Positions 18,901-36,704 of a stretch of DNA of 36,704 nucleotides are shown here, in pieces (within the stretch, counting starts at the first letter, position 1; each line of letters begins with the position of its first letter). A program made the position numbers and the translations under genes. Source of the DNA: a virus; IMG/VR virus record IMGVR_UViG_3300006736_000027, positions 1-36,704 of that record, one strand, 5' to 3'. The notes below the pieces were generated by a model, which was not told the DNA's origin, did not search any database, and saw only the letters and a program-made list of their open reading frames with translations.

Positions 18901-21900
18901 TGGTTGCTGGAGTGGCAGCTTCGCCCTATATTTTATCTCGAAGTCAATAAACCCATCATCAGAATAGGGCGACAACGCTGATTCGGCATCAAATCCGGCA
19001 CGAGTCGTGGCGTGATCAGTTGTTAAATCAAGAAATTCTACTCCTGGCAAATTTTGTGGTCCAAACTCCGGGTCTCCGGTTTGTCCAGTATAGTAAAACT
19101 GAATCCAGGCGGCGGCCGAGTTGGTGGCGGAGTCGGCGGAGGGATCCTCCGATAGTTCTTCGATACGAGGAGAACGTATAGGAGTTATGAAGTTTTCAAA
19201 TCCGGGTGCATCCTTCAATGCGCTCAGTTTTTGCGCAATATAAATCTTCTTCGCCGCCCAGAAAATGGGTGAATCGGCGGCCGGGTTTATCCCCCGGCGG
19301 CTAGCTACCTCAGAAACCATATTCTGCACAGCTTGCAGGTCGTCAGATGTCAAGGTGATCACTTGTTCCTGCAGCCCGTCCCTAACCTCTATCATGCCTC
19401 CTATACTATTTGCAATCCCCGAAGCAAAGGTCTTCTTTACGTTCTGATAGTACAGATCAATTGCAATATCGTTGACAGCCTGCGTGGATGGTAGGTTTTT
19501 CCAGTCCATGAGAGCGGGCTGTCGGGGAGGGGGGTTTGGCGCCCCCTCTGGACGTTCGCTTGGTACTACTGGATCGCAACTGTCATCAAAAATACTAGGT
19601 GGTGGAGGAAGGTGGAATCCTCTGTCCAGAAGATCTTGCAATTCTTGCCTCAAATCAGGCGCAATTGCATCGGGCGGCAGATTACATAGATCTGCCAATT
19701 GCTCATCTCCTGCTAACAATGTTTGACAATAGTCAGGATCGAGCATTGCCCCCATCTTGGCGAAAATGTCATCTACGGAATCCAAATCAGCGAACAGGCC
19801 AGCCAAACATGGTATTCCTTGGGCCTTGTCCAGAACCATATGTTTGACGTTGTCGGGCGCTGAGCCTTCCAGCAAAGAACACAGTTCAGCCGTAGTGAGT
19901 GCGCTAGCTACGAAGTCTATTAGTGCCTGAAGCTGATCTAAGTACTCATCGAGAGTACATGATTCAACCGGTGTTGGGAGAGCCGTGGGAGGGAAGCGCT
20001 CTGCTAGTGCTTCCCTTGAGATAGAGGGTGCAGATCCTTGATTTGGGTTCGCTAGATTATCTCGGACTTGCTGGCATATTGCCAATAAGTATTTCAACAG
20101 TCGAGGGAGAAGTTGGCGGGCTGCATTGTTCCAGCTAAAGTGGCGGTCGAATTCTTTTTTCATAGCCTTCATAGCTTGATCCCAGATGTCTTTTGCAGTT
20201 ACGCTCTCGTCTCTGGGGAGTTCTTTTTTGCGGTTCTTAGGAAGCTTATAGCTAGCGTCGTCATCTTGCTTATCTGGATTTATGAGGAATTCTATCAATT
20301 GCATTAGATAGTCATTTAAGTTTCGACATATTTCCTCAAGATCCACCATTTCACTGACTTCTTTTAGAAAGTCAGCGGTCGATTGAGCATTTTGTAGCAT
20401 GGCGGACCTATCATTGGAAACTCTATCCATACGTTGGATTGTTCCCTTGGCATCAGCGGCGCGCTGGAATTGTTTTTGTAACGCAACGGCGTCGAGCGTC
20501 GCGTACGACGAGTCAATCTTTTCTAACGCGGCGTTGTACTTCTGGTCGTTTTCAACCAGCGTTGGTCGAAGAGCAGCGTCGGCTTTCCCAAAGGTGCTCT
20601 CCATGCCCAGGCTCATAACCTCGCCACCCCATGCTGTTATTGCAAGGAAGGGAACAAGCACTGTTTGCCGGAACTCTTCTACTCCGATATAATCTAGCGC
20701 CATTTGAAGTTTTGTTTCGCAATCCCATGTGAGCCCTAATATTTCCAATAAACACCGAGTTAACTCGTTAGCAAGTTCCGTCATGCCGTAGCGAGCAACA
20801 AACTCATCATACGCATCAACCATATCTTTTATTCTGTTAGCGGTCCGTTCGAGCGACGCAAATTCAGAAGCGCCGGCGAAATGACGGCTTTTCTTGGTAG
20901 ATTCATAAACCTGCCGTTGAATTTCAGGATCTGCCAAATAGCGTCTTTCTCGGAGAGTTTGTTCGCGTGTTTTTACGCCAGGCGTTACTTCTTCCGACTT
21001 AATGGACACAAATTGGGGAGGTATCAAAATATACCTCTGAACCATGGATTTGGCTGATGGTGTGGATTTGGAATCCATCTGCTCGGCAATCTCCTTCATA
21101 TTCGAGATGAAAGAAATGTTTTGTGCAGAAGTGGCAGTAATAGAGCCTACGAACTTATCAAAGCCTATTTTTAAGGGGATCTTTCTGGTGGTGCCGTCAA
21201 AACGATTATGAAACACTGCATATAGCCCCTTGAGTATATAAAACTGATTGTAAACAAACACAAGTTCATTCACGGGGCTGTTCGGATCCCAAAACCCCCC
21301 AAAATCTTCGAGGTTTGCTTTCAAAAAGTTTACGAGGGCGCCGGTGGGAGTTCCCCCCGCTTCTATTTTTATAAAGCTCTCAAATTTTTCAAATTGGCTC
21401 GGGACTGTTGTGTCCTTGCCTGCCATTTTGAAGTCTTTAGACTCGGGAGCTAACAGAGCCGTCTCGAAGCCCTCGGTGTCTTCGAACCCTTTCTGGATCT
21501 TTTCCATGGCGGCTTTAAAGTCTTTGATATCATCTTTAAAGTTCTGAATCTTCACATGCTGATGGTGGTATTCTCCGTAATAAGAGTGTTCACCATATGT
21601 CTTCTCATACAAGTCCATGCGTGGTGGATTTTGTGGGAGGACGTCCAAATAGCTCCGGTGTAATGCTATTTGAAAAACCAAGTTGTTCGTGAGAGGATCC
21701 GGAAACCGGTTTACAATAAAGATTTTCTCCATTAAACTTCGGACCACGCCATCATTTGCGTCCCCGTCTATCGTTGGTCCCCCTAATTTATCAAAAAACT
21801 TAAGCAAATACGTGGCTGCGGTAGCCTTGACTATTCCTACTGTTTCCCTCATCTCCGGCCGGGCGAGGGAGCCGTGCTGCTGCGCCCACGCCGTTGACTG

Positions 21901-24232: not shown

Positions 24233-26197
24233 TTAGTACGGGGCATGGGAAAAGCGGGCTAGCCCAATATGCATGGGCCGACTGCCCATAGCGATGCCAG
24301 CGGACGTTGGGATCCTGTTATATGCAACGACGCCGTGGCCGGTGTAGGCTGTGCCATCAGGACTAACAAGGGACGGATCCATTGGCAGTAATCGGAAGCT
24401 TGCAACCGACCACAGTGGCAGTCGAACATAGTATTCGTAGGCCAGGGCGGCGCGAAGTTGAGCCGGGGTGGTAACCGGAGGGGCTTCGGCGAAGGCGCGG
24501 GCGTCCGAGATACTATAACGGGGGTCATCATGTGATCCTCCCGGACCATGTATGTATACCCTCGTGGCGGCGGTGAGTACCCGGGGCGTGACATGGACCG
24601 TAGGCGAGCCAGGGTGACTTCCGCCGATGATGGGAGCGAGGGGCATAGATGTATTCGGCTCCCATTTAATCTCATATTGTGCCGGGGGAGCATACGAACC
24701 AAGCCCCGTTAACTTACTAACTTTGTTATAACCCGTCGTCGCGTCTATCGTGTAGCGCGAGCGCTGGGGGCCACCGAGGATGTTGGCTGGCCATGGATTT
24801 TGACCAAGAGCAGCGGGCACGGGGGATGTCGGAGTTAACGGTAGATTATTATGCAAGTATCCATAATTTGTGGGATGCAAGAAATAGTTACGGGCGCCGA
24901 TTGGGTTCATATACTCCCCATCTAAAATAGATTTAGCAAATTTGCGCATGCGCGCTTGCGTAGTTGAACCGCCGCGGGCCCCGCTCCAGAATGCGGCGGA
25001 GGAGGCGGCGATGGTGGCATGTCCAGGCGGGCGGATCTTGTCCTTGTAGTTCGTGAGCAGACCCCCAATGCCTCCGTAAATCGTTTCGTCACTAAGTCTC
25101 ATCCCTTCTGTGTTGGCTCTATTAATAACCACGTAAGCAATACCAACCCACTCACCCAATAAATATTCCTTAGAGTCCGAGTTCTGAGCCGTTGTATCAT
25201 AAGGAAGATCTGCAACAGCGGGTGGCGACCAGATTCCCGGGGCGGTGGCGGTGCGGCGGTACCACGGTTCGCCTCGTTCTTTCGTCATAACGCGTGCCAA
25301 TATTTCAATATCGTCGTCGATGTAGGAGATTACCTGCGGGGCGACCAGAGCAACGGAGGTACTGGCGAAACCCGGGACACGGGAAGCAGCACTAGTAGGA
25401 CCGGCTAGTATCCCAAAATCAAAATCGGTGCAGGGTCCTCCGGCGTCGCCCGTGTTGGCGTGCTCGATCGCTGGTAAAATCATCGGTTGTCTAGAGTTTT
25501 TCATTATAACTTCTATAACGTCACCCTCAAGGACGCCGCCGAAGTGGGGCATTGGCTTTCCGTGGGGTATTGAGGTAGTAGGGGTGTGCCTCCGTAAAGG
25601 AGCTTTGGGCTCGTAAAGCCTCACCTTCACCATGGCGCCGATTTTGAGTCCGTTCTGATTTTCAAGATCTGGTAGGTAGCTGAAGAGTGGATACATTCTT
25701 GCAATTGCAAGCGTGTCTTTCTCAAATTGGTTGCTGACGCGTCGGCAATAGGACGGGTCTCGTACGCCGACCTCCACGTCGGGGATCGCTGGTATTACCG
25801 GTAGCACACTAAGTTCTGGAATTCTTACACGTACATACCCCGTGTCCTGCCCAATCGTCTCAAGGGCGTCGTCTTCATCGAACCCAAAGAGAGAACCGAT
25901 TTGATTCCCTAGACCTGGTGCTTCTCGACCTGGGACGGGGGTCGCGTTGTCCTCGCACTCTAGAGTTGACTTAACAGTAGCAACAACCCATCCATAGTAA
26001 TCTGTTTTGAGCGCCATGGGTGATGGAGGGACGATTTGGTCTTTTACGGCGGCCTGGATCCAGCCCCACTCGTCTACGACGTCCTCGTCATACGCCACCG
26101 TATTAGTGTTGATGTCGCGATTCATCTCAAGCTCACCTTCCACGGCTGCCACATGTCCGCTTCTAGTGACCAGATCGGATCCATCGCTTCTGGCCAT
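24233..26197 (-). CDS. Baseplate spike with OB-fold and SleB-like cell-wall hydrolase domain (gp5-like), 654 aa
   Basis: Two parts can be seen. Residues about 66-240 look like an OB-fold split by inserts: YYGWVVATVKSTLE, YVRVRIPELSVLPVIP, GAMVKVRLYEPKAP, GGVLEGDVIEVIMKN and RQPMILPAIE, as in gp5/gpV/VgrG spikes. Residues about 296-450 resemble SleB-type cell-wall hydrolases: ILARVMTKERGEPW, with E307 at the position of the catalytic Glu of the EARGE motif, then GEWVGIAYVVINRANTEG, and a distal ARNYFLHPTNYGYLHN. A roughly 40-residue insert separates the motif halves. T4 gp5 has an OB-fold plus a T4-lysozyme domain; here a different hydrolase would do the same job of opening peptidoglycan during injection. 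The C-terminus is Pro/Gly-rich with no clear beta-helix, which may be supplied by the next gene. Start ATG overlaps the previous stop (TAATG). Confidence 0.7.
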   Translation of the reverse strand: MARSDGSDLVTRSGHVAAVEGELEMNRDINTNTVAYDEDVVDEWGWIQAAVKDQIVPPSPMALKTDYYGWVVATVKSTLECEDNATPVPGREAPGLGNQIGSLFGFDEDDALETIGQDTGYVRVRIPELSVLPVIPAIPDVEVGVRDPSYCRRVSNQFEKDTLAIARMYPLFSYLPDLENQNGLKIGAMVKVRLYEPKAPLRRHTPTTSIPHGKPMPHFGGVLEGDVIEVIMKNSRQPMILPAIEHANTGDAGGPCTDFDFGILAGPTSAASRVPGFASTSVALVAPQVISYIDDDIEILARVMTKERGEPWYRRTATAPGIWSPPAVADLPYDTTAQNSDSKEYLLGEWVGIAYVVINRANTEGMRLSDETIYGGIGGLLTNYKDKIRPPGHATIAASSAAFWSGARGGSTTQARMRKFAKSILDGEYMNPIGARNYFLHPTNYGYLHNNLPLTPTSPVPAALGQNPWPANILGGPQRSRYTIDATTGYNKVSKLTGLGSYAPPAQYEIKWEPNTSMPLAPIIGGSHPGSPTVHVTPRVLTAATRVYIHGPGGSHDDPRYSISDARAFAEAPPVTTPAQLRAALAYEYYVRLPLWSVASFRLLPMDPSLVSPDGTAYTGHGVVAYNRIPTSAGIAMGSRPMHIGLARFSHAPY

Positions 26198-26505
26198 TAC
26201 TCTTCTTGTCCTCCGCCATTAATAATGTCGAACAACTCAGACTTGTCAACTTCGCTAAGTCCTTGAGTCTTGCTGTCTTTCTTGTGGAGAATGCTTGTTA
26301 CTTTGACAAGCTGTTCGTTCGAACGCTGAAGGGTTTCAACATATTTAGAAGCGATCAGTCCACATTCCTTATGTGAGGAAATGTCCTTCTTCATATAGAT
26401 GATGAGATCGGCCAGAAGCGAGTGGATGATTGTACGATCTTTACGCACGTTATCCACTGCTTCTTCTAATCTCTCTTCTAAGTTTAAATCTTTCCCTCGT
26501 CCCAT
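26197..26505 (-). CDS. Conserved-looking small helical protein, 102 aa
   Basis: The product is hydrophilic and predicted helical: NLEERLEEAVDNVRKDRTII, LLADLIIYMKKDISSHKECG, YVETLQRSNEQLVKV, ending GGGQEE. It starts at ATG 26505 inside the 3' end of the late sigma gene (22-base overlap) and ends on the start of the spike-hydrolase. The neighbouring sigma factor and its size (T4 gp33 is about 112 residues) invite comparison with a late-transcription coactivator, but I see no gp33-specific motif. Function unknown. Confidence 0.7.
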   Translation of the reverse strand: MGRGKDLNLEERLEEAVDNVRKDRTIIHSLLADLIIYMKKDISSHKECGLIASKYVETLQRSNEQLVKVTSILHKKDSKTQGLSEVDKSELFDIINGGGQEE

Positions 26506-27179
26506 TTTCTCTTGAAAATCCTATATTTCTCGCGCATTTTGTTGAGATTGTTGACAACTTGCTTGGTATTCAAACCAGTTATCTCTCTCATATACAGGTA
26601 AATAGCTTTTTTATTAAAAATTTCAATATCATCTGGCTCAGTTAGTAATATTTTAACTGCTTCATACACCTTGCGTTCGTTAACCTTCATCCCGTCGCCT
26701 AAATCCCATGATTGCATCTCTGTCCATAGGAAGTCCCAAAACTCCTCTTTCTCTCGCAATCTATGATATCCTAAGTCGGTCGACAAATGGGTGTGTTCAA
26801 GATCCTTTGATATATCTTCAAAGTAAACCTCACGTTTATTTTGCTGAGATATCTTCTTTACTTTGTGAATAAACCAGTTTTTGGTTATAACGCTGAAGTA
26901 AGAGAATGCTTTTGAGCCTTTGTTGGGATCATATTTATCCAATATTGTGGTTAGCCAGAGCTTACATTCCTCACTTAGTGACTCAATATTGGGAAGAGTT
27001 GTGAATTTATAGGTATAAACGATCTTATTTACCATTTCGTTGAACGCTGGTTCGATGAATTCAATGTAAAGCTCTGTTTTTATTTGTAAATCGTCCGTTA
27101 AAGCATATTTTACAATTGCGTTTTCGTGATCTTTTGTAAAATAATACCGCTTGGTATCTTTTTTGCGTTGGCTTGCCAC
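26484..27179 (-). CDS. Late-transcription sigma factor, T4 gp55-like, 231 aa
   Basis: T4 gp55 is a minimal sigma factor that recruits host RNA polymerase to the TATAAATA late promoters together with the sliding clamp. Residues 79-111 fit the region-2-like core of this group: ILDKYDPNKGSKAFSYFSVI followed by TKNWFIHKVKKISQQNKRE, comparable to the T4 segment around [23 protein letters not shown]. The N-terminus is basic (SQRKKDTKRYYFTKDHE), and the C-terminal third is a long helical region (GLNTKQVVNNLNKMREKYRIFKRK). The start is GTG at 27179, overlapping the upstream TAG by one base; the next Met is around residue 49 and would cut the domain. Its placement just before tail genes differs from T4. 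Confidence 0.8.
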   Translation of the reverse strand: MASQRKKDTKRYYFTKDHENAIVKYALTDDLQIKTELYIEFIEPAFNEMVNKIVYTYKFTTLPNIESLSEECKLWLTTILDKYDPNKGSKAFSYFSVITKNWFIHKVKKISQQNKREVYFEDISKDLEHTHLSTDLGYHRLREKEEFWDFLWTEMQSWDLGDGMKVNERKVYEAVKILLTEPDDIEIFNKKAIYLYMREITGLNTKQVVNNLNKMREKYRIFKRKWDEGKI

Positions 27180-27526
27180 TATGCTGCCTCAGTCTCTTCA
27201 GAAACTTCTTCCTCAGAGAGTTGATCTGACCATTTAAAAGCCTCATCAATTTGTTCGTCATCAATGAGAAAGATCTCTACGTACTCCTTCACACTAGCGT
27301 TAATGATCTGGGTATGTTCTAAAAGGTTTTGCAGAATGGGTTCTCCAAAAAAAGTATCCATTGAGTACACCGCTTTCAGGTGGGACTCATACCCATTGAG
27401 ATTATATTGTAAATCAGAGATCCCCTCAGAATAAGTGGTAAATTTGCTCAGCACGGCCCGCAGATAGAGAACCAAAAAAACGTTGAGCACGATTGATAGT
27501 GCTAATCCAAAATATACCCAATTCAC
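27179..27526 (-). CDS. Small membrane-anchored protein of unknown function, 115 aa
   Basis: One transmembrane segment is clear at residues 3-25 (NWVYFGLALSIVLNVFLVLY), followed by an acidic, mostly helical soluble part ending EEEVSEETEAA. With a short N-terminus and positive residues after the span (LRAVLSKF), the soluble domain would probably face the cytoplasm. It overlaps the FmdB-like gene by four bases (ATGA). The type is familiar from T4-like marine phages, but I know no function. A role at the host membrane is inference. Confidence 0.75.
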   Translation of the reverse strand: MNWVYFGLALSIVLNVFLVLYLRAVLSKFTTYSEGISDLQYNLNGYESHLKAVYSMDTFFGEPILQNLLEHTQIINASVKEYVEIFLIDDEQIDEAFKWSDQLSEEEVSEETEAA

Positions 27527-27792
27527 TTTTTTGTTTCCTTTTTCATTTCTTTCTTTTGCTGTTCAAGATCCTTTCTTGAGTCCTCAATAAACCTCTTTAC
27601 TGTCGCTCCTACGCGTTTTGGAGAGGCTTCTGTATTAGGACGATGGATGTTGACAACTCCGAAGAGTTTTTTAACGGGGGCCGACTCTGTACACTCACTT
27701 ATGTCTGCACAAGTTTCGATTTTTTCACCGAGAGTGTGAATAGACTCAATCTCTTTTTCACATTCTAAGCACACATAAGTGTAACGCGGCAT
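27523..27792 (-). CDS. FmdB-like zinc-ribbon protein, 89 aa
   Basis: The opening MPRYTYVCLECEKEIESIHTL matches the FmdB/CxxC zinc-ribbon family, where two knuckles bind one zinc ion. Knuckle one is C8-x2-C11. The second is C28-x5-C34, not the usual C-P-x-C, so zinc binding may be altered. After KLFGVVNIHRP a basic/acidic helical tail (SRKDLEQQKKEMKKETKK) follows. Family members are often labelled putative regulators, and phages carry them beside tail and packaging genes. Start ATG overlaps the upstream TAA (TAATG). Confidence 0.75.
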   Translation of the reverse strand: MPRYTYVCLECEKEIESIHTLGEKIETCADISECTESAPVKKLFGVVNIHRPNTEASPKRVGATVKRFIEDSRKDLEQQKKEMKKETKK

Positions 27793-28142
27793 TAACTGTC
27801 GTCAGCATCCGGGGCGCTGACTTTGACTGTCGCTTTCGCACGCTTCTTTGATGGTGCGCGACGGCTTGGAGCCTTCTTAGCTCTCGTCTTTGTGGTAGTC
27901 TTTTTCTTTTTAGTTTTGGTTTTTGTAGTTTTAGTCACAGGAGTAGTAGCCTCCTCTGACACAGCATTAATGCGTTCAAAGTCATCATTAAACCTTACAA
28001 TAGGGGGATTCATTACAACCAATCCTGTATCAGAACTTTGAAATTTAAACCCCTTCAACACTGGAACAATGTCTGATTGCTCCATTAGGCTCTTTTGAAG
28101 AGCCATCATAACTGCGCCTAGCGCTTGATCTGATAATTGCAT
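27792..28142 (-). CDS. Small protein with a basic histone-H1-like tail, 116 aa
   Basis: The N-terminal 50 residues (MQLSDQALGAVMMALQKSLM, VLKGFKFQSSDTGLVVMNPP) form a small helical/beta unit of a kind seen in marine T4-like phages. The C-terminal half is low-complexity Lys/Thr/Ala/Arg (TKTTKTKTKKKKTTTKTRAKKAPSRRAP and on), closing with an acidic DADDS. The start at 28142 is chosen over the in-frame ATG at 28163 because AGGAG lies six bases upstream of it and because it clears the RmlB-like stop. The tail suggests nucleic-acid or other polyanion binding. Function unknown. Confidence 0.8.
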   Translation of the reverse strand: MQLSDQALGAVMMALQKSLMEQSDIVPVLKGFKFQSSDTGLVVMNPPIVRFNDDFERINAVSEEATTPVTKTTKTKTKKKKTTTKTRAKKAPSRRAPSKKRAKATVKVSAPDADDS

Positions 28143-28152
28143 TTTTTCTCCT

Positions 28153-29106
28153 TTACCATACAAAATTATCCTTATAGTACTTCACTATGGAACCGATTTC
28201 CTCGTCAAAATTCTTCTTCGGCTCCCAACCCAAACTCCTCAATTTGTCATCGTTTAGGGCGTAACGTACATCCTGTCCGGGTCGTACGTAGGACAAATCT
28301 ACGTACGATTCCCAATTAATCTCTGTATCATTATAATATGATTCAATTATTTTTTTAACTGTTAACCTGTTTTCTTGCTCAAAACCGCCTGCTATATTAA
28401 AAATCTCATTCTTAATCCCACTTTCTATGATGGTTGTGACGGCTGCTGCGGTATCAGCTGCATGGAGCCAATTACGTATTGGGGCTCCTTTGTTGTGAAG
28501 CCTCACTTTCTTCCCACCTTGTAACAATTTTACGGTTAGTGGAATCAACTTTTCTGGGTACTGTCTTTCCCCATAGTTGTTTGTTGGTCTCAAGATAACA
28601 TATTCTATTCCATATGTTCGAGCCCACGATGTGACCAATAGATCAGCAGCGGACTTGGAGGCTGAGTAAGGATTACTTGGTCTTAGAAAATCCTTTTCGG
28701 TGTGCTCTCCTTCGTCGATGTCTCCATAAACCTCGTCTGTACTAACCTGTAAGAAGATGGGTCGTTCGCGAACGTTTGCGGGTTTGTTCTTAATAAGATC
28801 TAAAAGATTCTTAACCCCTTCAACGTTAGAGTGAATGAAATCTGTACTATCGATAATGCTGTTGCCAACGTGCGTCTCGGCTGCTACGTTAATCAAATAA
28901 TCACAATCAGGAAGACTCTTTAAATCGCAGATGTCCTTCTCTAGAAACGTGAAATTCTTGTTCTTCAAAAAGGTTGCAACCACTTCACGGTGGCCCGCAT
29001 ACGTGAACTTGTCAATCCCCAAAACACGATAGCCACTCCTGAGAGCCTCTTCTGTGATGTAGGAACCTATGAATCCCGCGACGCCTGTTATAACGATATC
29101 CCTCAC
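28153..29106 (-). CDS. rfbB: NAD-dependent sugar-nucleotide 4,6-dehydratase, RmlB-like, 317 aa
   Basis: This extended short-chain dehydrogenase turns a nucleotide-hexose (typically dTDP-glucose) into the 4-keto-6-deoxy sugar. The Rossmann glycine motif GVAGFIG is at residues 8-14, D32 follows for NAD ribose binding, and the catalytic T123-D124-E125 of dehydratases (as opposed to epimerases) plus Y147-x3-K151 (YSASK) are all present. Other RmlB marks are THVGNSI, SNPYSASK, RPTNNYGERQYPEKLIPL and the C-terminal YVRPGQDVRYALN. Translation starts at GTG, four-base overlap (GTGA) with the previous gene. It is a little short (RmlB is about 350). Substrate nucleotide cannot be read from the sequence; a CDP- or UDP-sugar is possible. 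The next gene starts after only 10 bases. Confidence 0.9.
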   Translation of the reverse strand: MRDIVITGVAGFIGSYITEEALRSGYRVLGIDKFTYAGHREVVATFLKNKNFTFLEKDICDLKSLPDCDYLINVAAETHVGNSIIDSTDFIHSNVEGVKNLLDLIKNKPANVRERPIFLQVSTDEVYGDIDEGEHTEKDFLRPSNPYSASKSAADLLVTSWARTYGIEYVILRPTNNYGERQYPEKLIPLTVKLLQGGKKVRLHNKGAPIRNWLHAADTAAAVTTIIESGIKNEIFNIAGGFEQENRLTVKKIIESYYNDTEINWESYVDLSYVRPGQDVRYALNDDKLRSLGWEPKKNFDEEIGSIVKYYKDNFVW

Positions 29107-29546
29107 TTTAAAAGTCCCACATAATCACTGCAAATACCCATAACCTCTTCTTCGTTCATTATAACAGTCTCTTCTTTGGTTTTGCACACAATAATGGAAT
29201 TATCACACACAGGTTTCCGAGGAAAAGTCCAAATATGACCGGTACTTGTTATAGTAAAGTCATCCGTCTGGTGCCAGAAACAATTAATATCGTTTTCAAT
29301 CATAATTTTTAGCGCTAAGAGGTTTTTTGCATGACACCACAACGAAGTACTTTTCAAGTATTTCAATTCGACGCTATGAATAGGTGCTTCGTGCCCCAAA
29401 TAGAAGCGTGCATTTGAATACCACACATCAATTTCCACATCATAACCAGAGTTCAGTGCCTTCTCAATATGTGTGGGACTATTTTCCTCACCAGGCATGG
29501 GACCGCTTATGTTTCCGCGGTGGGCTATTAATATCTTCCTGCTCAC
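29103..29546 (-). CDS. Small GDPD/PI-PLC-like phosphodiesterase, 147 aa
   Basis: The TIM-barrel phosphodiesterase signature is in place: H9-R10-G, E21-N22, E38-x-D40 (YDVEIDVW) and H52 (LGHEAP). These correspond to the metal-binding and catalytic residues of glycerophosphodiester phosphodiesterases. At 147 residues it is far shorter than the usual 240 or so, but the blocks after it (WCHAKN, FWHQTDDFTITSTGHIWTFP) are the familiar ones of a compact family found in polysaccharide gene clusters. So it looks complete, not decayed. It starts at GTG with a GTGA overlap. It may act on a phosphodiester-linked sugar or lipid-linked intermediate; substrate unknown. Confidence 0.72.
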   Translation of the reverse strand: MSRKILIAHRGNISGPMPGEENSPTHIEKALNSGYDVEIDVWYSNARFYLGHEAPIHSVELKYLKSTSLWCHAKNLLALKIMIENDINCFWHQTDDFTITSTGHIWTFPRKPVCDNSIIVCKTKEETVIMNEEEVMGICSDYVGLLK

Positions 29547-30340
29547 TTTCGCTTTTTCTTTTCACAAAACCACCAGGCACGTTTGTGACCACCATGGTGA
29601 GCGTCTAGGGTGTGGTATATGTCTGTAGTCAGAAGAGCATCTGAGTTTTCTCGGTCCCAAACGTAGTCCATACCCTCTTGCACCGATAATATTCGTAAAG
29701 TTTCATGGGGTGGGCTTGTGTATTGCATTCCATATTCTTCCAAGCGAGATTCAACAAAAGCGTAGCTTGGAGCGCTTCCGACCCCATTGAAAGCTTGTCC
29801 CCATGCACCCTTATCCCAATCTGTCTCCTCTGCGCGCAAGATTAGATGTTCAGAGTTATCAGAGTCAATAACCTCAGACTCCAAGATTAAGGTATTACAC
29901 CTTTCACTAATCATTTTAAGATTTTCCCCAGGATTACTCAGATGGTACAGGAGACCAACATGTATTATGATGTCATATTTTTCTTCCTCATATGGCCATG
30001 TAGTATTTTCCGAGTCTACTACTAGGCTCCTCAATTGAGGGAACCGCTCTCCTATAACATCGATGTGTTCTTGGCGCGCGTCACTTACCGTCACATCTGC
30101 CCCCATCGAGTAGGCAAATGCGCCTATAGCAGCAGGTCCACAACCTACTTCAAGTACTTTCTTTCCCTTAAAGGGGTTGTCTGGGAGGGCTTCTCCCTGG
30201 CGGCAAGCGTTGATGGCGTTAGCTAATCCATAGTGCTCTGCAATTGCAAAAATGCGGGATGAGTGCCATCCCGGGGAGATTTCGCCTTTCTTCGTTATAC
30301 CGCCCTGATATACTGGCGTGTCAAAAACATATTCTTTCAC
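29543..30340 (-). CDS. SAM-dependent methyltransferase (class I), 265 aa
   Basis: Motif I, VLEVGCGPAAIGAFAYSMGA, and the acidic end of the next strand (DVTVSDARQ) place this in the Rossmann-type methyltransferases. IIIHVGLLYHLSNPGENLKM is motif post-I/IV-like, as in small-molecule and sugar methyltransferases. I place the start at GTG 30340 (VKEYVFDTP) because it makes the four-base GTGA overlap found throughout this operon; an upstream TTG at 30367 would be an unusual choice. It lies among sugar-modifying genes, so a carbohydrate acceptor is likely, though not shown. Confidence 0.8.
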   Translation of the reverse strand: MKEYVFDTPVYQGGITKKGEISPGWHSSRIFAIAEHYGLANAINACRQGEALPDNPFKGKKVLEVGCGPAAIGAFAYSMGADVTVSDARQEHIDVIGERFPQLRSLVVDSENTTWPYEEEKYDIIIHVGLLYHLSNPGENLKMISERCNTLILESEVIDSDNSEHLILRAEETDWDKGAWGQAFNGVGSAPSYAFVESRLEEYGMQYTSPPHETLRILSVQEGMDYVWDRENSDALLTTDIYHTLDAHHGGHKRAWWFCEKKKRK

Positions 30341-31074
30341 TTCATATATCCGTATTTTTTTAGCCAATCCCCATACGTCGAATTCATAAATGTGATCTCT
30401 TCCTCTGAAAAGAAGTCTCTATAGGAACCAATTATCCCATTATTTGTCATCTGCTCTTTTTTCATCTTTGTGGTGATATGAAAATCAGTTGCTGACAGAT
30501 CAGCAAGTCCGATCAAGGGGCACTTTTCTTTATCGCCATAAAAATGCTTAAGATTTTCACTGTGATGTATGATCACTCCCAACGTTTCATCAGAGTGAGA
30601 TAGCCCTAGGGCAGCCTGCAATTCCCTCATTACGACGACTGGCTTTTCTTTGTACTTCTCGTAAACCCAGTCATAATCTGCTACATGTGCCCAGACCCTG
30701 TGCCATAAAATATTTAAATCGCAATATTCTTTTATAACACTTAAATCACGATCGCGGTTCTCTTTTCTCAAGCGAGAAGCCACAGCATCTCGCAAATCTC
30801 TCTGAACTCTTATAACCTTTATGTTATGCGATGCCTTGAATGTGTGACACCCCGGTTTTGCAGCACTCAACTCTGCAGAAAAAGGAAGATCGTGCTGTTT
30901 TGTAAGAACGACAGTCGTCGTACTCTGATGTATGGAATCTCGTACGCCATATATATTGGGAGGATCGTAAATATGAATGGTGGCGTCGGAGGCGGTGTAC
31001 AGGGCACGGAGTAGGTTGAAACAAAGCGTGCTGCCAGCTTGTGACATGCCCGTGATCATGATGGAGTCCGTCAT
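30337..31074 (-). CDS. Sulfotransferase family protein (first of a tandem pair), 245 aa
   Basis: PAPS-dependent sulfotransferases bind their donor through an N-terminal P-loop-like 5'-PSB motif and an RD-x-RD-x-V-x-S 3'-PB motif. Both are here: ITGMSQAGSTLCFNLLRAL at 7-25 and IKVIRVQRDLRDAVASRLRK near 85-104 (R92, D93, R95, D96, S100). The start is set at ATG 31074, overlapping the upstream TAA (TAATG); the further upstream ATG would run into the previous gene. C-terminal GIIGSYRDFFSEEEITFMNS is a typical acceptor-side end. With the next gene this makes two related enzymes in a row; they differ in length and are divergent. Confidence 0.8.
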   Translation of the reverse strand: MTDSIMITGMSQAGSTLCFNLLRALYTASDATIHIYDPPNIYGVRDSIHQSTTTVVLTKQHDLPFSAELSAAKPGCHTFKASHNIKVIRVQRDLRDAVASRLRKENRDRDLSVIKEYCDLNILWHRVWAHVADYDWVYEKYKEKPVVVMRELQAALGLSHSDETLGVIIHHSENLKHFYGDKEKCPLIGLADLSATDFHITTKMKKEQMTNNGIIGSYRDFFSEEEITFMNSTYGDWLKKYGYMK

Positions 31075-32012
31075 TATAGATACCCATACTCGCGAAGCCA
31101 ATGTGAGAACAATATATCTTTCTCTAAAACTGTCGTGATATCTTTAAATATATGCTCTTTGTACCCACCAACTTTACCTTGATTGGTCACATTATACTTG
31201 GTCATCAGACTGGGTGAATCCGTTGCTTTCTCGATCTCTTCACTTAAAGCGAATTCCGGGAGTGCACCCACCAGGGCAAGTATATCATCCATAGTGTCAG
31301 AGAATAATTCATCGGAATTGCCGATAATACTTTCATACATCGAACGCATAATCTGATGTTTTCTTTCATTACTTCCCAAGATATAGTCTTCATAAACGAA
31401 TTCATAATCGCTAATACTTTTCCACATATTATAATTACTGAGTTGTTCCTGTGCTATAGTGATTGGGTTATACGACTCATGGGGGTTTTGCAAAATTTTC
31501 TTTCTACACAGAGATGCCACAGTGTCTCTCAAGTCGCGGCGGGGCGTCAAGATCTTGCAGTTGGGAACAGTAGAGGCCAGATGGTAAAGAATGGGATAAT
31601 ATCCGTGTGTTTTTACCACCAGAAAGCACTTCGCGGGGGGTCCGGTGGGGGATCCCAAATCAAAAAACCCACCTTTACGAACCGTATAAGAAATTTTATC
31701 GCCCTTCGTTTTTGACTTTAAAGAAGAGTCCGGGTGGTTAAGATAAGCTAGCTCGAAAATAGGACCATGGGCCACGCAATCATACTCTTGTGAAGAAACA
31801 GCTAGCGCCTTTATCATATTATACAGCAGAGTCGACCCCGATTGTCCCATCCCAGCCACGATTACCAACAGACTGTCGGGATGTTGTGCCAATCGCTTCA
31901 CCAAATATTGTTCCACAAAACCAATATGTGCAGCGCGGTCGCTACCCACAACAACGTCGCTCTTACTAAGAGCAGGTATAACGTCTGTGAATCCTTTGGG
32001 TATTGTTTTCAT
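31074..32012 (-). CDS. Sulfotransferase family protein (second of a tandem pair), 312 aa
   Basis: The PAPS-binding motif IVAGMGQSGSTLLYNMIKAL lies at 51-70, the conserved VKTHGYYP lies at 133-140 (the family's K-T-H motif), and KILTPRRDLRDTVASLCRK lies at 153-171 with the RD-x-RD-x-V-x-S core. The end, VGGYKEHI...HWLREYGYL, is similar to the end of its neighbour. The start at ATG 32012 (MKTIPKGF) is supported by an upstream GGAG and an ATGA overlap with the nucleotidyltransferase stop; the ATG at 32060 is inside that gene. It likely transfers sulfate from PAPS to a sugar hydroxyl. PAPS would come from the host, as no PAPS synthesis gene is visible. Confidence 0.82.
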   Translation of the reverse strand: MKTIPKGFTDVIPALSKSDVVVGSDRAAHIGFVEQYLVKRLAQHPDSLLVIVAGMGQSGSTLLYNMIKALAVSSQEYDCVAHGPIFELAYLNHPDSSLKSKTKGDKISYTVRKGGFFDLGSPTGPPAKCFLVVKTHGYYPILYHLASTVPNCKILTPRRDLRDTVASLCRKKILQNPHESYNPITIAQEQLSNYNMWKSISDYEFVYEDYILGSNERKHQIMRSMYESIIGNSDELFSDTMDDILALVGALPEFALSEEIEKATDSPSLMTKYNVTNQGKVGGYKEHIFKDITTVLEKDILFSHWLREYGYL

Positions 32013-32722
32013 CGGTTCTCCAAAAAATGTTTGAGATCTTCCGGGGTTCCAATACCCCACATCTTATGTACGTAAAATGGGATCAGCGACTGACCTTCTT
32101 CTATGAGTTCATTATATACAGGGGCAATATAGAACTCATTATTAACTCTAATGTTCTTCTCAATCATGCTCTTCGCGTGTTTCACGAAGTCAGATCCCTT
32201 GCGATACCAGTAAATGCCACATGTGGCGATATTGGATATGGGCTTCTTTTCTGCAACTTCCGTAATGTACCCTCGTGAATTAGTTTTTACAAACGACCAT
32301 TTAGGATGCACTGCGTTGAAAGTGAACACGATAGCATCGGTGCTCGTTAAGTTTTTAAAGGCTTTGAAATTTTCTGCCTCGTACTCAATATATTGATCCG
32401 AGTTTGCAATAAGAAGATCTTCGTCGTTATCTATGTGTTCTTCAGCTAACAATGCAGTACAAGCTGCACCTTCTGTAAGTCCGTCAACCACAACATACTT
32501 GAACCGGTCATTGGTAATACGGCCGAGCGTATCTAACATTCCCTCGTACTTTTGAATATGCTCCCTTCGAACTAAAAAGATATATTCACAATCAAAATCT
32601 AAGTTCTCAACAACCGTTTGAATCATTGGTTTTCCACCGACGTCTATCAGTGGTTTGGGGAAAGTGTATCCTTCTTTACTAAAGCGGCTTCCCTCACCCG
32701 CCATGGGAATTAAAATTTTCAT
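32009..32722 (-). CDS. Nucleotidyltransferase (sugar-1-phosphate or related phosphate activating), 237 aa
   Basis: The N-terminal signature MKILIPMAGEGSRF...TFPKPLIDVGGKPMI has the glycine-rich NTP loop (G9-E-G-S-R) and the P-K-P-L lysine (K23) of the NTP_transferase family. Mid-region IANSDQYIEYEAENF holds the acidic pair that coordinates magnesium, and IATCGIYWYRKG the later substrate strand. It overlaps the HAD gene by 29 bases. The close set of this gene with a HAD phosphatase and a GDPD-like protein is a combination I associate with capsule clusters of the Campylobacter Cj1416 type, where such an enzyme is a cytidylyltransferase. A plain dTDP- or UDP-sugar pyrophosphorylase feeding the RmlB-like enzyme is equally possible. 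Confidence 0.82.
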   Translation of the reverse strand: MKILIPMAGEGSRFSKEGYTFPKPLIDVGGKPMIQTVVENLDFDCEYIFLVRREHIQKYEGMLDTLGRITNDRFKYVVVDGLTEGAACTALLAEEHIDNDEDLLIANSDQYIEYEAENFKAFKNLTSTDAIVFTFNAVHPKWSFVKTNSRGYITEVAEKKPISNIATCGIYWYRKGSDFVKHAKSMIEKNIRVNNEFYIAPVYNELIEEGQSLIPFYVHKMWGIGTPEDLKHFLENR

Positions 32723-33332
32723 TTATGTAGTCCTCCACTGTGTTCTTTGTAACCTGCTTAGAATTCTTCACTTCCATCACGCTGCATCCCGATGCATGGG
32801 CGGCGGCCAAACCCTTGGGTGAGTCTTCGACTATCATAGTGTTCCCAGCAGAACAATTAAAGATCTCTAGTATTTTCAAATACCCTTCTGGATCAGGTTT
32901 GGGGTTTTGCACATCTTGATTTGTCACAAGACAGTCAAGCAGGTCGTGAGCACCAACTTTTTTAAGCATAAGAATCGCAGTTTTACTAATACTGTTAGTA
33001 AAACAAGCAGTTATAATTTCTTTGTCTTTTAACCATCGGATAAGCTCTATTTTGCTTTCGTCGCGACGGGCTCTTTTTTCTATGATATCAATTGTTTTTT
33101 CCTGTTTCAACTCACTTACCAATTCATGACGATCGGCAGCGATAATACCCATTTCAGTGAGTTTATGTAGTTTTGTTCTAGTTGGCAACCCATTGAAGGT
33201 ACTATAATGCTCTTGATCCGGAATAACATATCCACATATTTCTTCTAAAGCCTCATTAAGAGCGTCTTTGTGCCACCCACAAGCATCAACCAGGACACCA
33301 TCCATATCAAATATAACGAGTTTTAGGCTCAT
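32694..33332 (-). CDS. HAD-superfamily phosphatase/phosphomutase, 212 aa
   Basis: All four HAD motifs are visible: motif I FDMDGVLVD (D9, D11), motif II ACFTNS (T112), motif III the lysine in NPKPDPEGY (K145) and motif IV VEDSPKGLAAA (E169, D170). The all-helical cap after motif I (WHKDALNEALEEICGYVI) makes it a subfamily I enzyme, like beta-phosphoglucomutase and phosphoglycolate phosphatase. It would probably dephosphorylate or isomerise a sugar phosphate for the nucleotidyltransferase. It overlaps the upstream gene by four bases (ATGA). Confidence 0.85.
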   Translation of the reverse strand: MSLKLVIFDMDGVLVDACGWHKDALNEALEEICGYVIPDQEHYSTFNGLPTRTKLHKLTEMGIIAADRHELVSELKQEKTIDIIEKRARRDESKIELIRWLKDKEIITACFTNSISKTAILMLKKVGAHDLLDCLVTNQDVQNPKPDPEGYLKILEIFNCSAGNTMIVEDSPKGLAAAHASGCSVMEVKNSKQVTKNTVEDYINENFNSHGG

Positions 33333-34048
33333 CTAAAGCCCCTCTCATTAATGTCAATTCCAACTTCTTCCAGCACAGATGTTAACATATCTCCATACTC
33401 TGATATCATCCATTTCCCCTTTACAACAGCCGTGGCAAAATATGGATATATTGAACTATCCCAATGGAAGGACCCCCTCTTCTCGTCTCCTTGAACCCAA
33501 ATCATTCCTGTCTTTATGTTGAAATAATTACAGATCATTGAGGAGTTTGTTTCAAACTCCCAAATTGTATCACCATGAGTTTTATCGTAGATCTTTTCCA
33601 ACTTACTCTTTCTGCATATACTTGGCTGAATTGCATATTTTAAATCACGTGGATTATCATATACATCCGAATGCGTTGTGCTTCTCACCAAGTTATGTTT
33701 TTCGCCATAACTTGCGCGTGACAGTTTAATGATGTCAGACTCTTCATTTTGAACAAGAGTTATTAGTTCTTTTAGTTTGTGTTCATTAGGGAAATCATAT
33801 AAAAACATATCTTCATGATGAAAAATAATTATATCCTCCTCAATCTGCCGTAAGCAATGCACCACTCTTTGTTGATAAGGTAGCGTGTCGTCATACCTTA
33901 TCACCACCCAATCATTTTCTAATTCTTGAGAATCCTGATTGGTAAGAAGGTATTTTTTATACCTTTTAAAATATCTGTCTGTTTGATAAAAGAGCGCCGG
34001 CCAAACATCAGAATAATCCGAATGTGAATAAAACACTAGAGGTATCAT
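33329..34048 (-). CDS. Glycosyltransferase-like protein, 239 aa
   Basis: I see no strong family signature. The layout MIPLVFYSHSDYSDVWPALF, then YKKYLLTNQD, IIIFHHEDMFLYDFPNEH (an acidic metal-site-like segment), ending in VKGKWMISEYGDMLTSVLEE, is like small GT-A-type sugar transferases found in phage and bacterial polysaccharide clusters. It has no membrane segment. It is flanked by a methyltransferase and a HAD protein. A glycosyltransferase is the best guess from context and fold pattern; the function is not proven by motif. Confidence 0.5.
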   Translation of the reverse strand: MIPLVFYSHSDYSDVWPALFYQTDRYFKRYKKYLLTNQDSQELENDWVVIRYDDTLPYQQRVVHCLRQIEEDIIIFHHEDMFLYDFPNEHKLKELITLVQNEESDIIKLSRASYGEKHNLVRSTTHSDVYDNPRDLKYAIQPSICRKSKLEKIYDKTHGDTIWEFETNSSMICNYFNIKTGMIWVQGDEKRGSFHWDSSIYPYFATAVVKGKWMISEYGDMLTSVLEEVGIDINERGFR

Positions 34049-34049
34049 T

Positions 34050-34766
34050 TTATTTCACACACCTTACCCAAATCCACCCTGGGTGTCCCGCATCTAAGGG
34101 TTCCCCATCGTCAGAAAGCGTGTCTGTAATGACGGCTGAGTTTTCTGAAAAACCTATTCTCTTCATGTCCTCTAAAACCTCTTCTTCTTCAAAAATTCGA
34201 ACATCATGATCTGAATTTGTGCTCCTAGCACCATATGCATTTTCGTAATATCTGCTTCTCGGTCGACCGATGGGGTCAGATAAGTCTTCTCCAATGCCCA
34301 TTTGAAAAGAGAAGATACCCCCATCATGTAAAAGATCAAAAATATCGGTAATTATTCTTTTTCTAATATCATATACGGGTATGTGCTGAAGGGCGATTGT
34401 AGACATCACAAAATCATATTTTTTTGTTCTCGGCATACAAGACAAGTCAAAGCCATTATTTACAAACCAACTGCTTTCCTGATCGGTATAGTTATCTCTG
34501 CAGTAGTTTATATTACCTTCCGATATGTCGACGCCATCGACTTCGCTCCAATTGCACAAGCTTAATAGATTGGTAACATTACGACCTTTTCCACAAGCGA
34601 AATCAAGAGCTTTCTTTCCTTCCCATCTGGATGTATCTTTAAGATCTTTTAGTAGTATATTCCAATAATTTTTGTTATTATTGTGTTCCAGGTGGTTTGA
34701 TGTTCCTGCCTTGTAAAATGCTTTTTGCATAGAAGTGTAAGAATTCTTTTTTAAAAAATCTGTCAT
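34050..34766 (-). CDS. SAM-dependent methyltransferase (class I), 238 aa
   Basis: Motif I is ALDFACGKGRNVTNLL (residues 53-68), with acidic D80 in VDGVDISEG after strand 2, and FVMSTIALQHIPVYDIRKRI as the motif IV/post-I strand. DLLHDGGIFSFQMGIGED is the usual beta-strand after the DGG turn. This is the ordinary small-molecule methyltransferase fold, and the cassette context suggests O- or N-methylation of a sugar. Stop and next ATG are one base apart. Confidence 0.82.
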   Translation of the reverse strand: MTDFLKKNSYTSMQKAFYKAGTSNHLEHNNNKNYWNILLKDLKDTSRWEGKKALDFACGKGRNVTNLLSLCNWSEVDGVDISEGNINYCRDNYTDQESSWFVNNGFDLSCMPRTKKYDFVMSTIALQHIPVYDIRKRIITDIFDLLHDGGIFSFQMGIGEDLSDPIGRPRSRYYENAYGARSTNSDHDVRIFEEEEVLEDMKRIGFSENSAVITDTLSDDGEPLDAGHPGWIWVRCVK

Positions 34767-34767
34767 C

Positions 34768-35604
34768 TTATTTTACCCACTTTGTTATTTCGTATAGTCC
34801 GGTCTCCTTACAAAACCATTTATGATGTAAGTGACTATCGGTAACCCTCCATCTTGGGAATTTCATAAGATTTGTGCTCCTCTCTGATTCGGCTTTTTCC
34901 AGCTCATTTGAAAACTGATTCTCGTCATCAAAGTCCCATATGTTAAATGCGTTGCTATCAAACCATCCCGAGGTTAGACTCTTTTCATAAGAAGAGCGCG
35001 CTTTGAAATCACTCAGGCAACTTTCATATATTGAAGAATATAAATCCATTATATCACTTGAGCCATAAAACCACATATCCCCATAACCAACATTCATCTG
35101 GTTCCAATATGCTGTATACAAAAACCTCTTGTCGGCATTATGATTGAATTTTATCTGTTTAACCTCTTCGCCGCCGCGCTGGCCGATGTCGAACCTAGTC
35201 GTTATCACCCAATCATATTTAAACCCATGCTTCCGTTCGTGTTCCCTTTTTAACTCTAAGGCTTTGCATCTGGAATAGTAAAAACTCATTATTCTTGACG
35301 CAACGGCATTCTTATACATGGTTTTCTCTCTAGGAAACCCCTCGTCGATATACTGTTGCTCTATGCCATTTTTTCTACAGATCTCTTCAAAGTCAATTTG
35401 GCTTTCGAATTCTGAAGCCGTTGGCGAGTAGAGCATTTCTACGGTCTTTTGGTGCTCCGGCTGCCAGCAATGTACAAATACATCCACATTCTTGCATTGT
35501 GAGTATATCTTCTCTTTTAGAAGAGCGTGTCCCGCATAAGCAGATAGGTGATTGTTGACACTCACAGTACCGAAATATCCCGACAAACACAAAGCAACCT
35601 TCAC
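34768..35604 (-). CDS. Glycosyltransferase-like protein, 278 aa
   Basis: Start is GTG (VKVALCLSGYFGTV). The pattern of ALCLSGYFG, KNVDVFVHCW, and YDWVITTRFDIGQRGGEE (RFD as a DXD-like acidic motif), followed by DMWFYGSSDIM and SNAFNIWDF, fits a recurrent family of phage and bacterial sugar transferases related to capsule enzymes. The acidic motif is at about residue 140. A short seven-residue upstream frame (35601-35624, MSKGKKS) ends with a TGA that overlaps this GTG, the same four-base junction used elsewhere; whether it is translated is unknown. Confidence 0.55.
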   Translation of the reverse strand: MKVALCLSGYFGTVSVNNHLSAYAGHALLKEKIYSQCKNVDVFVHCWQPEHQKTVEMLYSPTASEFESQIDFEEICRKNGIEQQYIDEGFPREKTMYKNAVASRIMSFYYSRCKALELKREHERKHGFKYDWVITTRFDIGQRGGEEVKQIKFNHNADKRFLYTAYWNQMNVGYGDMWFYGSSDIMDLYSSIYESCLSDFKARSSYEKSLTSGWFDSNAFNIWDFDDENQFSNELEKAESERSTNLMKFPRWRVTDSHLHHKWFCKETGLYEITKWVK

Positions 35605-35622
35605 GATTTCTTGCCTTTACTC

Positions 35623-35652
35623 ATTATAATATAATTTTTAGTATTTTTTAAA
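35623..35652 (-). promoter_or_regulatory. Candidate sigma70-like promoter in the 35605-35656 gap
   Basis: In the only gap within the cassette, the minus strand has TTTAAA (35647-35652), an 18-base spacer and a perfect TATAAT (35623-35628). Transcription would begin just ahead of AAAGG and the GTG start of the 278-residue glycosyltransferase-like gene. The -35 box matches only four of six consensus bases, and the surroundings are AT-rich. It would allow the genes to the left to be expressed by host polymerase separately from the two genes to the right. Confidence 0.35.
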
Positions 35653-35656
35653 CCGT

Positions 35657-36280
35657 TCATTCGCTAACCACTGGTATTTTCTTAAAAATATCAAACTCTG
35701 TCAAATCGCGATAAGGAGGATCTTCTAACAAGTCATCCATATGTTCTGGATAGTTTTGCATAAGCATTAGTCCTCGACAAGCTTGTTCAGGGTTCATGTA
35801 CATATTCCATCCTTCTTCAACGATATTGTCCTCGTGGTAAGGCACGGTACCTCGACCTTCATATCTAGCCTTTTTGTACCAGTCTACAGCCTCCTTGCTA
35901 TCCGTCAAGATCATACCGCCCTTTCCAATTTTAAGATGCTTCTTAATATGAAAACTCAAGCACATGGTGCTCTGAGGGATATACATTTCTGACGTCAGCC
36001 TTTTGGCTGCGTCGTAAATCGGAAACGGTTTAAGTTGGTAGATACCCTTCCAGGCAACATCTTCGAACTGCAACTTGGCGCCGGCGTGCAAAATAGACTG
36101 CGGTGGCGAAAGGTATGTTCTTTTCGGAATTGTAACTTCCCTTCCCTTAACCTTATGGTACTTGCATGCCAAAAAAATAGCATTGGTGCAACTGTTTACA
36201 GAAACTGCATACGGGGCACCTGTATAGTGAGCGATCTCTTCCTCAAACATTTGAACTATCTTGTAAGGATTATGTAACAT
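35657..36280 (-). CDS. Short DegT/DnrJ/EryC1/StrS-type PLP aminotransferase, 207 aa
   Basis: The DegT layout can be followed: KIVQMFEEEIAHYTGAPYAV, VNSCTNAIFLACK (the Thr-containing PLP-phosphate loop), PIYDAAKRL (D90, PLP pyridine-nitrogen contact) and LSFHIKKHLKIGKGGMI, with K114 at the Schiff-base lysine position of SFHxTK. It then ends after YMNPEQACRGLMLMQ and a short tail, at about 207 residues against a usual 370, so the C-terminal domain that shapes the active site is missing or replaced. I prefer ATG 36280 because the family's N-terminal blocks begin right after it; ATG 36349 would add 23 residues overlapping the FkbM gene. It could aminate a keto sugar made by the RmlB-like enzyme, if active. 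Confidence 0.7.
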   Translation of the reverse strand: MLHNPYKIVQMFEEEIAHYTGAPYAVSVNSCTNAIFLACKYHKVKGREVTIPKRTYLSPPQSILHAGAKLQFEDVAWKGIYQLKPFPIYDAAKRLTSEMYIPQSTMCLSFHIKKHLKIGKGGMILTDSKEAVDWYKKARYEGRGTVPYHEDNIVEEGWNMYMNPEQACRGLMLMQNYPEHMDDLLEDPPYRDLTEFDIFKKIPVVSE

Positions 36281-36302
36281 ATTAGTCCGCAGTGTGGCCC
36301 GG

Positions 36303-36704
36303 TCATAGGCGTAGGTCTTTATAATATTTCTTATTGACGGCGAACACATTATCTAATTCGCGGAACTCACCGATGCGGTCATTTATAGATCTACTGGGCA
36401 ACTTTTCATCAAATTGGATGCGCCCGTCCCACAATTCAAATAAGTAAAAGTGGCTGCACAGTTCATCAAGAAGACTTTGCTTACGCTCAAATCCATAGTA
36501 GTTATGAAGTTCCATAGCTATGAACGTTATTTTGTCATAATCCTGCAAGCCTTCTAAGATATCATACTCGCCGCCTTCACAATCCAGCTTTAGATAATCA
36601 ATTCTGTCTATTTCAAGTTTTTCGAAAATCTGGTTTAGGCTAGTAGTCTCACACGTTTCTCCAGTATCCTGCAGCGTTATCCCTTCTCCTATCTGTTGCA
36701 GACA
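36303..36704 (-). CDS. FkbM-family methyltransferase (partial, N-terminus off the right edge)
   Basis: Only the last 134 codons are in the window. They read LQQIGEGITLQDT near the edge, then LEIDRIDYLKLDCEGGEYDILEGL and ITFIAMELHNYYGF. The DYLKLDCEGGEYDIL segment is the hallmark of FkbM SAM methyltransferases (K-x-D-x-E-G-x-E). The C-terminal part (LFELWDGRIQFDEKLPSRSI) is ordinary for the family. FkbM enzymes methylate sugar or macrolide hydroxyls; in a sugar cassette, O-methylation of the glycan is the likely job. The ORF is open through the right edge. Confidence 0.8.
   Translation of the reverse strand, partial: CLQQIGEGITLQDTGETCETTSLNQIFEKLEIDRIDYLKLDCEGGEYDILEGLQDYDKITFIAMELHNYYGFERKQSLLDELCSHFYLFELWDGRIQFDEKLPSRSINDRIGEFRELDNVFAVNKKYYKDLRL

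Follow-up and report, generated by a model that had tools for sequence, protein, structure and literature searches.

Sulfotransferases in a conserved glycan gene frame with an exchangeable slot in a marine T4-like phage and its relatives

We analyzed a 36,704-nucleotide (nt) IMG/VR fragment of a marine T4-like myovirus, a virus of bacteria (record IMGVR_UViG_3300006736_000027; hereafter the window), which carries a cassette of 12 consecutive open reading frames (ORFs) for sugar making and finishing at positions 28153-36704, all on the minus strand. An earlier interpretation made from the letters alone (the sequence-only reading) had proposed these 12 genes as a pathway for one complex sugar unit. 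All 12 are present, none has an internal stop, and each is intact except the first, an FkbM-type methyltransferase gene that is truncated by the window edge and encodes a full 259 amino acids (aa) in the closest relative. From FkbM to the tail gene o322 the intergenic gaps run from -52 to +5 nt, the sole exception being the 52 nt between DegT and GTx1. Because these gaps are so small, the cassette, the late sigma factor and the first genes beyond form one tight row. Downstream of the cassette, also on the minus strand, come the T4 gp55-like late sigma factor (26484..27179; phrog_234, 1.7e-4) and the baseplate genes gp25 and gp6.

The sugar-making core includes a sugar-1-phosphate nucleotidyltransferase (NTase; 32009..32722) that matches PF00483 (NTP_transferase; 3e-11) and PDB entry 4evw (E = 4e-18). 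The HAD enzyme (32694..33332; HAD_2, 2e-28) has invariant His21, Lys76, Lys145, Glu169 and Asp170; the Asp pair is kept, as are the equivalents of beta-phosphoglucomutase His20 and Lys76, whereas Thr stands at the position of Arg49. Its profile fits a sugar phosphatase about as well as it fits the beta-phosphoglucomutase of Lactococcus; the earlier assignment to the HAD family stands, and a beta-phosphoglucomutase-like enzyme is at least as good a call as the phosphatase proposed. The RmlB-type nucleoside diphosphate (NDP)-hexose 4,6-dehydratase (28153..29106; TIGR01181, 8e-87) carries the TDEVYGD, YxxxK and NAD-binding motifs and matches solved deoxythymidine diphosphate (dTDP)-glucose 4,6-dehydratases in the PDB (best 4e-60); because its TIGR01181 score of 291 is under the curated cut-off of 365, we assign it as a 4,6-dehydratase with the nucleotide unproven. 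The pyridoxal phosphate (PLP)-dependent sugar aminotransferase (35657..36349; PF01041, 1e-23) is a short DegT protein of about 205 aa in relatives versus about 370 aa as standard. Its Lys137 (the PLP lysine), Asp113 and Thr55 (phosphate-binding) are invariant in all 17 aligned members, and its AlphaFold2 (AF2) model (mean predicted local distance difference test (pLDDT) 84) matches full-length DegT sugar aminotransferases with a TM-score of 0.56-0.63 on the query, the full two-domain length being absent. It is a shortened relative of the DegT/DnrJ/EryC1/StrS family, not a standard member, with the catalytic residues retained. The twelfth gene, counted by the sequence-only reading but left unnamed, encodes a half-length GDPD-like protein of 147 aa (29103..29546; phrog_34507, weak match to GDPD 7e0v) in which His-Arg, ExD and GH, the catalytic residues of the first half, are invariant; in standard GDPD the catalytic HRG, ExD and H sit in a full TIM barrel.

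Two genes were candidates for glycosyltransferases. GTx2 (33329..34048) has no family match and a PDB search by sequence gave nothing useful, and the call was settled by fold: its AF2 model (pLDDT 91, predicted TM-score 0.90) matches GT-A glycosyltransferases and nucleotidyltransferases in Foldseek, the latter sharing the GT-A fold. GTx2 is therefore predicted to fold as a GT-A-type nucleotide-sugar enzyme, which upholds one of the two glycosyltransferase calls; the other, GTx1 (34768..35604), is a putative glycosyltransferase of a family conserved in these cassettes. Three S-adenosylmethionine (SAM) methyltransferases, one of them partial, had been recognized, and Pfam profiles place all three in class I: FkbM (36303..36704, 5' end cut by the window edge; PF05050, E = 7e-10; 98% identical to L082_2), MT2 (34050..34766; Methyltransf_25, E = 1.5e-11) and MT3 (29543..30367; Methyltransf_23, 6e-9). 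The family calls made from visible motifs were thus borne out by profile, motif or fold, save the corrections to GTx1 and HAD.

The remaining two genes encode sulfotransferases. ST1 (31074..32060) has the 3'-phosphoadenosine 5'-phosphosulfate (PAPS)-binding motifs GQSGSTLL and RRDLRDTVAS and matches Sulfotransfer_3 (PF13469) at 2e-5, below the Pfam cut-off; ST2 (30337..31101) has SQAGSTLC and QRDLRDAVAS and matches Sulfotransfer_1 (PF00685) at 4e-8. Single-sequence scans of IMG/VR with either protein found no relatives, a search of published phages with ST2 found no match, and a family alignment was required. Across nine aligned cassette sulfotransferases, GSTL (the phosphosulfate loop), RDxRDxxxS and the NxGxxG end are invariant, and a profile of the family hits SULT1C2 at 4.9e-10 and, more weakly, tyrosylprotein sulfotransferase. 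The basic loop residue (Lys or Arg before SG) is replaced by Gln in eight of the nine and by Glu in L002. Because Gln replaces the loop Lys in most members, we keep the claim at the level of fold and PAPS site, with activity unproven. A motif scan of IMG/VR for the family returned 21 stretches, including seven confirmed relatives, all seven within cassettes already found. In one relative, L025, an adenosine 5'-phosphosulfate (APS) kinase, the enzyme that makes PAPS, follows directly after the sulfotransferase and bears an N-terminal DUF2061 domain. The conserved PAPS site and this adjoining kinase strengthen the earlier proposal of two sulfotransferases and a sulfation arm.

To place the cassette among its relatives we used 80 related IMG/VR loci, all possibly fragments, that were collected through the NTase alone; shares therefore describe NTase-bearing loci only, and since several loci are near-duplicates, counts are given per distinct NTase. 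Across the 80 loci we find the frame DegT-GTx1-GTx2-HAD-NTase-[slot]-GDPD-RmlB, then the late sigma factor, which is a syntenic marker in 30 loci. HAD adjoins NTase in 23 of 24 distinct sigma-linked loci, GDPD lies at most seven genes downstream in 20 of the 24, and the order DegT-GTx1-GTx2-HAD-NTase is kept in 11/11 loci that have all five. The slot between NTase and GDPD is empty in six of the 24 and holds one gene in nine, a pattern that was noticed in, and counted on, the same set of loci. Its occupants are sulfotransferases in L009, L010, L011 and L025 and methyltransferases in L005 and L014. Given that the profile hits cytosolic SULTs and, with less strength, tyrosylprotein sulfotransferase, one might suppose that these enzymes are only neighbors in the locus and sulfate something other than a sugar, for example a small molecule or a residue of a tail protein; their use of the same slot as methyltransferases, within a row of sugar genes, makes this improbable.

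Comparison with the closest relative shows the same design in a single pair. Islands of 83-97% DNA identity (FkbM, DegT, NTase, and RmlB to sigma) alternate with unalignable stretches; protein identity is 36% for GTx1, 35% for GTx2, 67% for HAD and 57% for GDPD, MT2 and MT3 are absent, and the sulfotransferase is likewise replaced or absent. Baseplate and tail genes of the pair also diverge (gp25 54%, gp6 62%, o2421 31%; o497 82%). Upstream, the relative carries a GNAT acetyltransferase gene (before FkbM), c22, a uridine diphosphate N-acetylglucosamine (UDP-GlcNAc) 2-epimerase-like gene and three glycosyltransferases, an extension that stands after a nuclease and a PhoH-like gene; GNAT lies one to three genes before DegT in 12 loci. 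What the window shows of this phage glycan locus is its downstream half; the locus continues past the window edge. The ordered set expected in related phages is kept there as a core frame; independent replacement, which the sequence-only reading had named as counting against it, is seen among the tailoring genes and not in the core. In this locus the scaffold is conserved and the finishing enzymes can be swapped. That single genes turn over so often could also be read as a sign of transient cargo or filler with no selected joint function, which the cyanophage report leaves open for lipopolysaccharide (LPS) clusters (PMC3037559); we give this very little credence, as catalytic residues are intact, order and core are conserved across diverse phages, and the APS kinase sits beside a sulfotransferase.

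Several relatives hold other sugar genes. The exchanged region of the closest relative (L002:4029-8460) encodes a HAD hydrolase, a PfkB kinase, a second nucleotidyltransferase and a transketolase-like protein, and a short ORF after the last may be its other half. At L025:5134-6576 a nucleotidyltransferase is fused to a 3,4-dihydroxy-2-butanone 4-phosphate synthase (PF00926, 2e-72 in L025), and the same fusion occurs in L009, L016-L018 and Synechococcus phage S-SKS1. An APH-like kinase, a c23 protein and a transaldolase follow the fusion, and S-SKS1 annotates the gene at the c23 position as phosphoheptose isomerase. This cluster is possibly a second activated-sugar route.

Cellular genomes contain parts of the same set. 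Of 80 cellular homologues, 47 have HAD and NTase as a single fused protein, and in 33 GDPD lies at most three genes away; because cellular genomes fuse or cluster these genes, we regard the HAD-NTase-GDPD trio as a module of cellular type. A surface-glycan cluster in a Balneolaceae metagenome-assembled genome (MAG; L097) resembles the phage loci in bringing together homologues of short DegT (69% identity), GTx1, GTx2, HAD-NTase, GDPD and c22, and differs in that HAD and NTase are fused and an ABC transporter is present. L092, a genome-collection contig named Methylococcaceae TMED69, combines the cassette with homologues of late sigma and o102, which suggests a phage contig inside a MAG. In clostridial operons (L142, L146, L152, L153, L157, L167, L168), a small gene separates two nucleotidyltransferases that accompany HAD; this gene is a homologue of phage cluster c27 in L146 and L157, the two in which we checked it, and L146 has a GDPD-like gene just upstream.

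NTase, RmlB, DegT and GNAT together make up the textbook route to an N-acylated 4-amino-4,6-dideoxy sugar (VioA/B and related routes). From the observed genes, families, motifs, gene row, synteny and swapping we infer a reaction order, a product and an acceptor. The beta-phosphoglucomutase-like HAD would ready a sugar phosphate that the nucleotidyltransferase would activate. RmlB would then produce a 4-keto-6-deoxy intermediate to which the short DegT would add an amine, and the GNAT found upstream in the closest relative may acylate that amine, giving a viosamine- or Fuc4NAc-type donor. GTx2, probably GTx1, and the GT4 and GT2 enzymes upstream in relatives would build a short glycan, which FkbM, MT2, MT3 and the two PAPS-dependent sulfotransferases could finish. 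We therefore retain the proposal that the phage encodes, in an operon, a glycan pathway that includes amination, methylation and sulfation and is kept as an ordered set in relatives. The idea of one complex sugar unit fares worse: FkbM, DegT, NTase and RmlB are nearly unchanged in the closest relative while its decorators are replaced or absent, and relatives hold further glycosyltransferases, so that a multi-sugar glycan with variable finishing fits better. Because relatives exchange finishing enzymes while the frame stays, we propose that the product is a diversifiable surface epitope.

The acceptor was approached through membrane proteins. In a simple hydropathy scan, proteins with at least four predicted transmembrane (TM) segments occur in 0/80 phage loci versus 56/80 cellular loci of similar total length. 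The phage loci have no polytopic membrane protein and therefore supply no flippase or polymerase, which is suggestive, not decisive, against a phage-supplied lipid-carrier route. Because of this count and the linkage to baseplate genes, we favor a virion protein (tail or capsid, glycosylated in the cytoplasm) as first choice and the host envelope as second. Under the second, the phage would remodel host LPS or capsule during infection, for instance for superinfection exclusion, with host flippase and polymerase. Pelagimyophage glycosyltransferases have been read in this way (PMC7029224), and the ABC transporter of the Balneolaceae cluster shows that the gene set can serve cell-surface export. 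The sharing of a row with late sigma and baseplate genes and the lack of a polytopic lipid-carrier transferase, flippase or polymerase in any of the 80 phage loci speak the other way, and we consider envelope remodeling possible, though doubtful. T4-type phages glucosylate DNA, and this phage is T4-like, so the sugars might instead modify DNA as hypermodified, glycosylated bases. We rejected this as very unlikely: no base-modifying enzyme (thymidylate synthase or dCMP hydroxymethylase homologue) was found in 16 related records, possibly fragments, and to our knowledge sulfation, amination and FkbM methylation are outside known DNA glycosylation.

In our preferred reading, the locus makes an amino-deoxysugar glycan that is variable, bears sulfate and methyl groups and most likely sits on virion proteins; we assign this reading a probability of about 0.5. 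Several points weigh against it. Phages rarely encode membrane proteins, which weakens the count from the hydropathy scan, and use of host flippase machinery is compatible with flippase-free loci. We identified neither an acceptor sequence nor an enzyme that would link the glycan to protein. The glycosyltransferase call for GTx1 is unproven because the protein's DUF7796 and phrog_13607 matches are weak and it has no PDB match, and the half-length GDPD-like protein is without an assigned step in the route. On the sulfation side, no APS kinase over cut-off is present in the other eight records of the sulfotransferase set, the window included, and ATP sulfurylase was not found in the sulfotransferase records; APS kinase over cut-off was also lacking from 21 further related records outside that set. 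Most sulfotransferase-bearing phages of the group would thus depend on host PAPS. A fuller version of the preferred reading, in which a dedicated system sulfates the phage's own virion glycans, some phages supply their own PAPS, and frame plus exchangeable slot diversify a surface epitope, we advance tentatively, as somewhat short of an even chance.

Beyond the cassette, o123 (27792..28163, minus strand), a basic protein at the boundary, is retained after RmlB in relatives, and next to it is an FmdB-like zinc-ribbon protein (27523..27792, minus strand; Zn_ribbon_8, 4.5e-5, below cut-off). A late-promoter scan (TATAAATA, at most one mismatch) gave matches scattered within genes and none convincing at the cassette. 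Giant tail-region proteins of 4,074 and 2,421 aa (window 3-12224 and 15991-23256) are strongly diverged from the closest relative, the latter without a Pfam match. Between the sigma and baseplate genes, a 654-aa protein without family match (24233-26197) resembles a SleB-like hydrolase in one part, judged by eye only. The tail genes o654, o322 and o497 have no match in PHROGs, and a search of the phage collection for near-identity to the window found no match.

The locus sets a phage sulfotransferase family in a defined pathway, with the donor enzyme adjoining in one relative, and so makes the question of its function testable; a 2023 marine-phage study states phage sulfotransferase function as unclear (PMC10580990). 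In the literature searched, no phage sulfotransferase family is described with such a cassette, donor enzyme and exchangeable slot. Phage glycan clusters as such are already known; the sulfation arm and the scaffold-and-slot design are new. Our findings also suggest a role in glycan making, not in host metabolism, for some of the rfbB-like 'auxiliary metabolic genes' that marine viruses carry. The phage and its relatives probably decorate their own particles, or else the cell they infect, with variable sulfated sugars.

Among known systems, the LPS-type clusters of cyanophages and pelagimyophages are likewise variable glycan gene clusters of marine T4-like phages; in the cited portions of those reports their function is either not decided (PMC3037559) or taken to be alteration of the host O-chain (PMC7029224), and sulfotransferase cassettes are not described. 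The cultured Flavobacterium phage vB_FspM_immuto (MW353176) encodes a PD-(D/E)XK nuclease followed by a short DegT, glycosyltransferases and a methyltransferase, and its late sigma and baseplate genes lie further downstream; unlike in the window, about 20 kb separates its cassette from the sigma gene and no sulfotransferase is annotated there. The phage cassette also parallels giant-virus fibril glycosylation. The Mimivirus 2-O-methyl-N-acetyl-viosamine pathway joins a dehydratase, a DegT-type aminotransferase, an acetyltransferase and a methyltransferase to make a virion sugar; most of its steps, unlike ours, are experimentally shown, and the passages available to us describe no sulfation arm. 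The fibril-glycan clusters of Megavirinae (Moumouvirus australiensis, Cotonvirus) place a sulfotransferase and an APS kinase together with a 4,6-dehydratase, an aminotransferase, an acetyltransferase and glycosyltransferases (PMC10117803, PMC9614988); these are eukaryotic giant viruses, the sections cited do not note a HAD-NTase-GDPD core, and sulfation there is likewise unproven.

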